From NCBI GenBank assembly GCA_944393235.1, contig CALXZJ010000003.1:1-64000 (forward strand): a stretch of 64,000 nucleotides of DNA. The letters are read 5' to 3'. Position numbers and translations under genes: made by a program. Below the pieces are notes generated by a model. It saw nothing but the letters and a program-made list of their open reading frames with translations, did not search any database and was not told the DNA's origin. The DNA comes from an uncultured Alphaproteobacteria bacterium (lineage in GTDB: Bacteria > Pseudomonadota > Alphaproteobacteria > RF32 > CAG-239). Below are positions 45,756 through 48,884 of this stretch, in pieces. Numbering within the stretch: the stretch's first letter is position 1; every line of letters begins with the position of its first letter.

Positions 45756-46766
45756 GTGATTCAGAAAAATTGGCAAGAACTTATTAAACCAACTAATTTA
45801 GAAGTTACTTCCGGCGAAGGCGGAAATAAAGCTAAAATAGTGGTAGAACCCCTGGAGAGAGGTTTTGGTTTGACTTTGGGCAATGCCTTGCGCAGAGTTT
45901 TGCTCTCCTCGTTGCAGGGTGGTGCGGTAACCGCCATCAAGATTGACGGCGTTCTGCATGAATTTTCAGTTGTTCCGGGCGTCCGTGAAGATGTGACGGA
46001 TATCGTCTTAAACGTTAAAGGGTTGGCAGTGGCTGTTCATAATGAAGGTCAAAAAATAATGACCTTAAAAGCGGAAGGTCCCTGCACGGTAACGGCAGCA
46101 ATGATTGAAACCGGTCATGATGTCGAAATTATGAATCCGGATCATGTTATCTGCAATTTGGATGCAGGTGCAAAAATTTCTATGGAATTGACGGTGGATA
46201 CCGGCAAAGGTTATGTTCCGGCTTATCAGAACAAGCCGTCTGATGCACCTATCGGATTGATTGCCGTTGATGCAATTTATTCTCCGGTCAAGAAAGTGTC
46301 TTACAAAGTTGAAAATACTCGTGTCGGTCAAATTACCGATTATGATAAATTAACTTTGGTGGTTGAGACCAACGGCGTCGTTTCGCCGGAAGATGCCGTT
46401 GCTTATGCGGCGCGCATCCTGCAAGACCAACTCAAACCGTTTATTAACTTTGACGAGCCGGAAAATGAAGTTGAAGACGTTAAGGAAGAACTACCGTTCA
46501 ATCGCAATCTCTTGAAAAAGGTTGATGAACTTGAACTTTCCGTTCGTTCCGCCAATTGTCTCAAGAACGATAACATCGTTTATATCGGCGATTTGGTACA
46601 AAAGACCGAAGCCGAAATGCTCCGTACGCCAAACTTTGGTCGCAAATCTTTGAACGAAATCAAAGAAGTCCTAGCCAAAATGGGCATCCATCTCGGTATG
46701 GAAACCCCGGGTTGGCCGCCGGAGAATATTGAGGAGTTGATTAAGAAATGTGACGACCACTTCTAA
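45756..46766 (+). CDS. rpoA: RNA polymerase alpha subunit (GTG start)
   Basis: 336 residues. The N-terminal assembly domain contains [24 protein letters not shown]; the C-terminal DNA/activator-binding domain (about residues 250-336) contains [16 protein letters not shown] and [10 protein letters not shown]. Starts at GTG with AGAGGG upstream. Its stop codon lies at the edge of a large palindrome, and rplQ, normally next, is about 17 kb away. Confidence 0.97.
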
Positions 46767-46878
46767 AAAGTTCGTCTAACGGTCATCTACTTGCAAGCCC
46801 TGTCACTCATGTACTGTTTTGTGTACACTTCGTGACAGGGCTTGCGGCGTATCTGACGCGTTATCCGAACTTTTTAAG
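46763..46878. repeat. large nested palindrome at the rpoA stop codon
   Basis: Inner perfect arms GCAAGCCCTGTCAC (46793-46806) and GTGACAGGGCTTGC (46832-46845) enclose a GTAC-containing loop. Outer arms are also related: CTAAAAAGTTCG (46763-46774) pairs with CGAACTTTTTAAG (46866-46878), with similar CATCTAC/GTATCTG and TAACG/CGTTA steps between. The rpoA stop TAA is within the left outer arm. The right outer arm doubles as the start of the first 121-bp tandem unit. Confidence 0.8.
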
Positions 46879-47130
46879 CGGCTTGACCGAATGGTGGTTT
46901 GGAGTTGCAAGGAAGCTTTCTGCGTATCTGTCTCATTCTTTGCGCTTCTTGTGTAAAAAGGGGTTCGGCGTATCTGACGCGTTATCCGAACTTTTTAAGC
47001 GGCTTGTTCGGAGGGTGGCTTGAAGTTGCAAGGAAGCTTTCTGCATATCTGTCTCATTCTTTGCACTTCTTGTGCAAAAAGGGGTTCGGCGTATCTGGCA
47101 CATTATCCGAACTTTTTAAGCGGCTTATTT
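46846..47130. repeat. 121-bp tandem repeats downstream of rpoA
   Basis: Two complete units, 46846-46966 and 46967-47087, differ at about nine positions by eye, and a third, partial unit starts at 47088. Each unit begins GGCGTATCTG and contains CCGAACTTTTTAAGCGGCTT and AAGGAAGCTTTCTGC. The period is not a multiple of three, so reading frames through the array change frame from unit to unit and are not genes. The region 46767-47154 holds no gene. Confidence 0.85.
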
Positions 47131-47154
47131 GTGCTGATGTTTTGAGATGTATTT

Positions 47155-48123
47155 TTATTTAAAGTTGATATGCATGTATAAGGAACCTTCTTCAATGACA
47201 TGGGCACAAGCGTTTCGAATTTGGTTTAAGGTTGCTGTTTGAAGTGTTTTATTATTGTCGGTATTATGAAAATAATAGTTGGCTCCTTTTGAACTCCATA
47301 TTCTGAGCGTTGTAACATTTTCATATTCTTTGGCATGGTTAATGATGCTTTGACAATAGAATATTTCTGTTTCCCGGTTGTTTAAATTTCTGGCATTTAT
47401 GCTGAAAGTTCTGGTTTGTCCATTGCCGATTTCGGAGACAGCCATTTCGTGGCCCAGTTTGTCATAAACATGATTAAGGACGTTCTTTTTTATCATATCG
47501 CCGGGGATGAGATTCATTTTTATAAAATACGGAATATAACCAACTGATGATGTGTGTGAGGATTTAAATTCGTCTTTATATTCATTTGCCAGATATATTA
47601 TATAAAATGTTTGTTCCAAACTTTTATTAAGCCGATATTTCATCATGGCTTTAGAGTAACCGGCAATCGCGCCGACGCTTAAAACGCCGATAATAGCCAG
47701 CACGCCGAGCATCTCCACCATAGAACGACCGCATAACGGCACATCTGCTTGCCTTCTTCTCGCTCGTGTACTATTTTTGTACACGTCGCTCAAACAAGGC
47801 TGCGCATCTGCACCCTTCTTCGGTCGTTCACCTCTTGTGCATAGAGCCGCATCTACTTGCAACTTTTCTCCTCGTGTACCTAATGTTGTACACGTCGTCG
47901 AAAAGTTACGGCGTATCTGCAGCCCTCTGCGCAAGAATGAAAATAAGAAGGAAATCGCGTATAATGGCACATCTAAAGCGCTTTTACGCGAAGTCGGAAA
48001 ATTCACGTACGTCTTTTGTACGCTAGGATTTTCCTCCTCGCTAGAAGGCACTTTATCTGCACCATTCTCCGCAATTTCGTTGTGAGCAGGTGAAGAGGAT
48101 TTGAAAAAATTGAATAAATTCAT
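47155..48123 (-). CDS. pilin-like protein with a repeat-expanded 132-residue leader
   Basis: 322-residue protein. Residues 132-160 are a type IV pilin/pseudopilin N-terminus: cleavage site CG|RSMVE with Glu at +5, then the hydrophobic helix MLGVLAIIGVLSVGAIAGY. Prepilin leaders are normally 6-30 residues; here 131 residues precede the site. The ATG has an AGGAG site, so the long form seems genuinely translated. The leader holds recurring ADVPLC-like units (LDVPLY, VDAALC, ADAQPC, ADVPLC) encoded by palindromic DNA repeats. The mature 190 residues contain a conserved-looking globular part with no recognised domain. Confidence 0.7.
   Translation of the reverse strand: MNLFNFFKSSSPAHNEIAENGADKVPSSEEENPSVQKTYVNFPTSRKSALDVPLYAISFLFSFLRRGLQIRRNFSTTCTTLGTRGEKLQVDAALCTRGERPKKGADAQPCLSDVYKNSTRARRRQADVPLCGRSMVEMLGVLAIIGVLSVGAIAGYSKAMMKYRLNKSLEQTFYIIYLANEYKDEFKSSHTSSVGYIPYFIKMNLIPGDMIKKNVLNHVYDKLGHEMAVSEIGNGQTRTFSINARNLNNRETEIFYCQSIINHAKEYENVTTLRIWSSKGANYYFHNTDNNKTLQTATLNQIRNACAHVIEEGSLYMHINFK
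47741..48060. repeat. array of palindromic elements inside the prepilin leader
   Basis: Four successive palindromic units separated by (G)CATCTRC / GCGTATCTG motifs. Two share the core CGTGTAC-N6to8-GTACACG (47765-47786 and 47873-47895), also seen in altered form in the rpoA palindrome. Their outer arms differ but still pair: GCCTT/AAGGC (47751, 47796), TGCAC/GTGCA (about 47810, 47837), AACTTTTC/GAAAAGTT (47861, 47900) and GGAAAAT/ATTTTCC (47996, 48028). The array is in frame and free of stops on the minus strand. Confidence 0.75.
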
Positions 48124-48570
48124 AAAAAAGACTCCTAAGAAAAGCCAAAGAACATATACTTGCCCGTCATTCTAAACCGTTTTTTTTTTTTTCAATTTTA
48201 AAGAGTCTGGTGGGGATAAGTTTCTACTGTTACTTTATCATCATGCCCCAATCCTCGTCACCCCATGAGCCGACAACGTCGGCGAATTTAGGGGTCTCTT
48301 CCTATACATGCGACAGACGCCTAACCTCGAGTGCTAAAGCACTCTCAGGGCGTGACAGGAAAGGGGTAAATTGTGTGGTAGACGCCTTAACCACCGCGCT
48401 ATCGCGCGGCGGTGGCGTGACGGGGAAGGAAATCGTGTGGTGGTGGCGTGACGGGGAGGGGAAGCGCACTCTTGAGCGTGTGAAGGAAAAGAGAATCGTG
48501 CAGAGGTGGGTAATGGAGAAAAGAGGGACATTTATCTTAAAATATTAATTGGTACAAAATGGTATTGATT
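48124..48570. repeat. gene-free region with GC-rich hairpins and GCGTGACRGG repeats
   Basis: No supportable gene in this 510-base gap. It contains a 12-base T run (48180), hairpins GCCGA/TCGGC (48268-48282), GAGTGC-TAAA-GCACTC (48329-48344) and CCACCGCGC/GCGCGGCGGTGG (48391-48415), and three copies of GGCGTGACRGG (48348, 48414, 48445). It looks like interspersed repeat debris of higher GC than its neighbours. An ORF over 48210-48548 follows the repeats and is not believed. Confidence 0.6.
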
Positions 48571-48635
48571 GATTAAGCAAGATAAAATTTGACAAAAACA
48601 ATATTTTTGCTAAACTTAAACAAAGGAGTTTGAAG

Positions 48636-48884
48636 ATGAATAGCCATAAGGTTGTAAAAAAAGCTGCCGGCGGCATTTTTGGCAGTGCCGGTTATGTGCT
48701 TAAGCTTGCCGAGAGAAATTTGAGCGTTGCTGAAATTGTTTTGAATGGTGCTAGAAATATGGCGGATGGCTTTGTCAAGGCTCCGGAATTTGGTGTTGGC
48801 AAGGCTGCTTTTGATATGACCCAAAAAAGTGTGTCAACTTTGGCGAAAAAGTTTATGAAATATAGTAAAAGGATTGCCAGATAA
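48636..48884 (+). CDS. small hypothetical protein
   Basis: 82-residue basic, Ala/Gly-rich protein, mostly helical, with no signal peptide or recognised domain. AAGGAG lies 7 bases before the ATG at 48636 (a TTG 6 bases earlier is less likely). The stop overlaps the ATG of the next gene by one base (TAATG), so the two are translated together. Function unknown. Confidence 0.6.
   Translation: MNSHKVVKKAAGGIFGSAGYVLKLAERNLSVAEIVLNGARNMADGFVKAPEFGVGKAAFDMTQKSVSTLAKKFMKYSKRIAR

Follow-up and report, generated by a model that had tools for sequence, protein, structure and literature searches.

In-frame palindromic repeats at the prepilin cleavage site as a probable source of long leader peptides in a family of uncultured Alphaproteobacteria

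How does a prepilin come to carry its cleavage motif at residue 132, and is the long leader in front of it made at all? The gene that raises these questions lies at 47155-48123 on the minus strand of the window (the 64,000-nt stretch of DNA analysed here) and encodes 322 residues, the leader being the 132 residues up to G132. As the first-pass annotation had proposed, the ORF carries the motif G132↓RSMVE at this distance from its start, followed by the pilin helix, and the ATG (48121-48123, minus strand) has a Shine-Dalgarno AGGAG 8 nt upstream (48132-48136, minus strand). The prepilin peptidase motif is read from GGT CGT TCT (47722-47730, minus strand), that is, G132 (codon 47730-47728), R133 and S134; the predicted mature pilin, its cut placed by this motif, extends from R133 to residue 322 (47158-47727, minus strand). 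Glycine at -1, glutamate at +5 and about 20 hydrophobic residues thereafter are all present (G↓RSMVEMLGVLAIIGVLSVGAIAGYSKAM). The N-methylation domain is weakly recognised (TIGR02532, E = 0.94; PF07963, E = 0.14), the prepilin scoring above cut-off in neither NCBIfam nor Pfam and the leader having no match in them beyond the pilin motif; similarity to pilins with the same motif is unambiguous at 63 other sites of the genome. A processing enzyme is also encoded, by a single Peptidase_A24 gene (PF01478, G000:C5:12287-12631, E = 1.6e-16).

The leader consists almost wholly of three palindromic elements, each a nested hairpin (palindromes in the window were sought with a centre-based scan, since RNALfold on the full window gave mostly coding-region noise). 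All are in frame on the minus strand and match the covariance model described below, R1: type A (47950-48080; NGADKV...ALDVPLYAIS; 41.5 bits, E = 1.2e-8), type B (47830-47940; LRRGLQIRRN...LQVDAALC; 104.5 bits, E = 2.9e-24) and type C (47722-47831; ERPKKGADAQP...RRQADVPLCGR; 114.9 bits, E = 2e-28), which ends with the GRS codons, the peptidase motif lying within its 3' outer arm. One open frame spans the three, so that the earlier description of palindromic repeats staying in frame and stop-free holds, and the recurring ADVPLC-like peptides remarked on at the time correspond to the in-frame translation of the 3' arms of the three elements (LDVPLY in A, VDAALC in B and ADVPLC in C). The leader RNA is predicted to fold as three successive long hairpins (MFE -183.6 kcal/mol against -118.6 +/- 5.6 for shuffles, z = -11.6, 0/100), and Rfam had no match to 46500-48700 up to E = 1. 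A fourth element, type D (46765-46876, minus strand; R1, 88.1 bits, E = 3.2e-21; fold z = -9.0), lies between rpoA and the pilin gene and shares the architecture with different stems; with an A-run and a T-run as outer arms it has, after rpoA, the look of a two-way terminator, as do copies in other genera. Close by, a 109-bp direct repeat (46900-47129; 93% identical, spacing 121) joins the 3' half of element D to other 5' halves, and 48240-48500 holds a further palindromic spacer repeat, of a CGTCACCCC.../...GGGGTGACGGGG type that also adjoins the pilin genes L008, L011, L014, L015, L021 and L023.

R1 was built from 13 elements and 38 pairs. The elements are about 105-131 bp long, and constant blocks (about TGCAGATRCGCMG, GACGACGTGTACA-loop-GTACACGAG and CAAGYAGATG) alternate in them with stems that vary between copies yet remain complementary: 21 of the 38 pairs changed on both sides, and the covariation score of 0.374 was reached neither by slid controls (at most 0.129) nor by shuffles (0/500). 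Within the host's GTDB family the model matches 26 of 33 genomes, which represent 15 of 16 genera, and it matches none of 56 sampled genomes from other alphaproteobacterial families; among named relatives, the nearest are MAGs from uncultured Alphaproteobacteria of the gut and rumen. Many copies sit in prepilin leaders in g1 and in G018 (g3). G006, which has two pilin genes, carries about 20 type A copies, mostly in spacers and within a longer repeated unit, and the copies examined in G004, G015, G037, G044 and others have no adjacent prepilin and apparently lie in spacers too, often with A-run/T-run outer arms like those of two-way terminators. The coding copies among those examined, a part of all copies across the genomes, lie in prepilins. 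The element is presumably mobile; a Y1/RAYT transposase was rejected as its mobiliser, PF01797 being absent from the element-rich G001 (33 copies) and G006 (27 copies). One row of several elements stands outside a pilin gene (L121, G001:C27:5794-6267), with open frames on the opposite strand.

How the leader grew can be read from genes that lack the element. The host genome (1.43 Mb, 62 contigs) has 64 pilin matches, and 57 distinct pilin genes were read: plain leaders are 6 residues long (MRENGR/SMVEML) in 33 of the 37 with a recognisable start and filled leaders 42-133 residues, both counts including R133. The contrast recurs in two congeners and in one genome of another genus. In G002, plain MKFNELGR/SMVEML stands against filled MKFNELGRSFFRKKLQIRSN...DATFSGR/SMVEML, and in G018 plain ...QSGR/SMIEML against filled ...QSGRSLLPESGADAP...ADVPQYGR/SMIEML. 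Two genera, then, carry elements in frame in their prepilin leaders, placed precisely at the predicted cut. Leader lengths compared across paralogues and congeners, a check proposed in the first-pass annotation, are mostly 6-9 residues in repeat-free genes and at least 42 in repeat-bearing ones; the idea that would have undone its reading, orthologues sharing the long leader without repeats, fails because plain genes are mostly short-leadered.

At its simplest the insert measures 108 nt, or 36 codons, and separates the Ser codon of GRS-MVE from the Met codon. A new GRS is read from its 3' arm, and the old GR(S) remains upstream as a relic: the codons change from GGACGCTCA in the relic to GGAAGAAGC in the new site in G018, similarly in G002, and from GGTAGAAGT to the GGTCGTTCT kind in G001. 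Across 67 filled genes the downstream GR is invariant (67/67) and the upstream relic partly decayed (DR, GL, SR, WR, RR, LC). On the 5' side the outer arm usually matches the new codons in reverse complement (CTTCTTCCG...CGGAAGAAG; GAACGACCG...CGGTCGTTC); that it should in every case be newly copied and inverted from the target was rejected as a general rule, type A and intergenic copies having outer arms of their own. Because the relic and restored GRS codons differ, there is no plain target-site duplication, nor was a nucleotide-identical one found in the filled genes, and we therefore infer insertion as such from the comparison of plain with filled genes. Neither the cleavage motif restored from the element's own 3' arm nor the family-wide repeat was part of the first-pass annotation.

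Selection on these inserts appears to act on frame. Four leader-element sets, with 39 sequences and 142 distinct changes between them, contain no in-frame stop against 6.1 expected (P = 0.0016, a value that overstates independence since the copies are related), and stops are present in frames +1 and +2. In type B and in the L104/L105 type the frame shifts inside the element and an opposite one-base change restores it, the total of 108 nt being kept. The elements have no third-position bias (P 0.18-0.52), whereas the mature pilin has a strong one over its first 90 nt (P < 0.0002, filled and plain genes pooled). The absence of stops, the restored frame and the lack of third-position bias together indicate that the frame is selected and the amino acids are not, which is the pattern that a translated but discarded spacer should leave, and which fits the earlier suggestion that the leader is tolerated as the peptidase removes it.

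We therefore regard it as probable that the long leader consists of in-frame copies of a family-specific palindromic repeat at the prepilin cleavage site, translated, cut off and selected for frame. The repeat would enter at the Ser-Met junction, and because its 3' arm encodes a second GRS that abuts the mature pilin, G↓RSMVE would be restored there and the old GR left behind. The whole leader would then be translated from the original ATG, remain cytoplasmic and be removed by the prepilin peptidase; only the reading frame of a discarded leader would be under selection, and with the amino-acid sequence free, further elements could pile up. Prepilin peptidase acts at the membrane face and the leader is cytoplasmic (PMC10191384), so that leader length may not matter. 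The best reading is thus of a protein-coding palindrome like the Rickettsia palindromic elements (RPEs), probably neutral and tolerated because the peptidase should remove it.

Alternatively, the hairpins themselves could be functional, either as control structures in RNA or DNA or as points of recombination by which leaders and bodies are shuffled within a repertoire of 50-150 members, although we think this unlikely. The prepilin family is extremely expanded in several of these genomes: besides the 64 matches of the host, each of two congeners has 52 pilin matches, G018 at least 150 and G006 2, and many contigs of the host assembly end at a pilin start. The deep covariation of the stems speaks for function, as do the within-species changes, which are rarer in paired columns (69 in 280) than in unpaired ones (69 in 152), and the B/C hybrid element of gene L010. 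Moreover, within none of four genomes does leader type cluster on the mature-pilin tree (changes against shuffles 14/14.6, 11/11.7, 10/10.2 and 14/13.1) despite a genome signal in the tree (50 vs 88), a quick tree of divergent proteins that is itself poorly resolved. This lack of clustering would mean either that the element is gained and lost often or that leaders and bodies are exchanged at the conserved GRSMVEMLGVL region; that region could, however, serve shuffling by itself, most of the pilins read have no element beside the site, and the leader stems are also often broken. Similarly doubtful is an element specialised for prepilin genes, in which the outer arm encodes the peptidase motif, so that each GRS^M insertion would restore the cleavage site, and the hairpins would act as exchange points between leaders and bodies among the 50 to more than 150 pilins of a small genome.

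Our preferred reading of a translated, discarded leader also competes with the improbable one that translation starts inside the last element (at the GTG of DVPLCGR, for example, or at the ATG that some loops contain), which would leave a short leader of the ordinary kind and make the remainder 5' untranslated RNA. Many type C and A copies do have an in-frame GTG 15-30 nt 5' of the site, but GCG replaces it in many others, the only in-frame start codons near the cleavage site being GTG or TTG and 19 copies having neither; an SD-like site precedes none of the internal GTGs. The upstream start, in contrast, is kept: where the upstream sequence of a filled gene is complete, a frame opened by ATG crosses the element in about 55 cases, and all but 3 of 56 filled genes have an SD-like site at the upstream in-frame ATG. 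The four exceptions have lost that start or frame in different ways, no upstream ATG being in frame with the hybrid element in L010, L203 lacking the ATG, L177 running into a stop after a one-base change in an A-run and L184 reading AGG at the start. All four keep intact pilin bodies, so that some starts may be internal or the genes silent; all genomes appear to be MAGs, and assembly errors are possible. On balance the upstream ATG with its SD site, the open frame and the lack of a conserved internal start favour the first-pass opinion that the long leader is probably made, and the internal start near residue 125 that was named as its refutation did not emerge from the sequences. A few filled genes have lost start or frame, which would suit a reading of filled genes as silent or dead, their extended leader blocking export; this is very improbable, as nearly all keep frame, SD site, cleavage motif and mature ORF, and the third-position bias at the mature start (filled and plain genes pooled) is strong.

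Protein-coding palindromes of Rickettsia and Wolbachia are reportedly the subject of work by Ogata et al. from 2000, 2002 and 2005. Such palindromes, RPEs among them, are reviewed in PMC2229807 and used in PMC3767692. Like RPEs, the host-family element is alphaproteobacterial, forms a single long stem-loop within their size range of about 105-146 bp and is found both in spacers (in the window, G004, G006 and others) and within ORFs, whose frame stays intact. RPEs occupy many unrelated housekeeping genes (PMC3767692), whereas the coding copies examined here belong to a single gene family and occupy a single site, in another bacterial family, with stems that covary strongly between copies and an arm that regenerates a protease site; this comparison is one of size, fold and placement, to which may be added that the leader has no NCBIfam or Pfam match beyond the pilin motif, in libraries that may or may not hold RPE models. 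In Yersinia, reading frames derived from the MITEs YPAL/RU-2 and ERIC/RU-1 are fused to exported proteins (PMC2229807), so that there too a small repeat supplies an N-terminal export region; the Yersinia repeat, however, is part of the signal peptide, while the prepilin element stands in front of an entire class III signal and should be discarded. Long-leader type IV prepilins are known among T4b pilins and the major pilins of S. sanguinis (PMC10191384), which share with the host prepilins a variable leader length and a peptidase cut at the membrane face next to the helix, but the host leaders are built of repeats, span 42-133 residues and vary between paralogues of one genome. REPs are palindromes dispersed in bacterial genomes as well but measure 20-40 bp (PMC3733652), shorter than the host-family element, and in contrast to REP/RAYT systems the presence of Y1 transposase genes does not follow that of the elements. 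Integron attC-like recombination sites were considered and dropped because the conserved boxes are lacking.

The phenomenon is thus known from Rickettsia and Wolbachia; the open literature searched yielded neither this bacterial family nor the prepilin cleavage site as target nor the restored motif, and held no report of prepilin-leader insertions or pilin expansion in these bacteria. The family provides a further case of a protein-coding palindrome outside those two genera, and one in which plain and filled paralogues of the same genome serve as internal controls, so that whether such inserts are tolerated junk or put to use becomes testable. It places the insert in a part of the protein that should be cut off, the frame being kept and the amino acids free, and leaders in this family of uncultured gut bacteria seem to have lengthened, with no evident harm, from about 6 amino acids to 42-133. 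Prepilin leaders can therefore exceed their usual length more than 10-fold, and pilin finders and gene callers may miss them. Other in-frame inserts occur in the G018 leaders L168, L172, L179, L188 and L191, one giving the peptide CHAALAMTK and derived from a GCTGCGCTCGCAATGACG repeat, another of the DLQINFNQAEDALTIPAES type.
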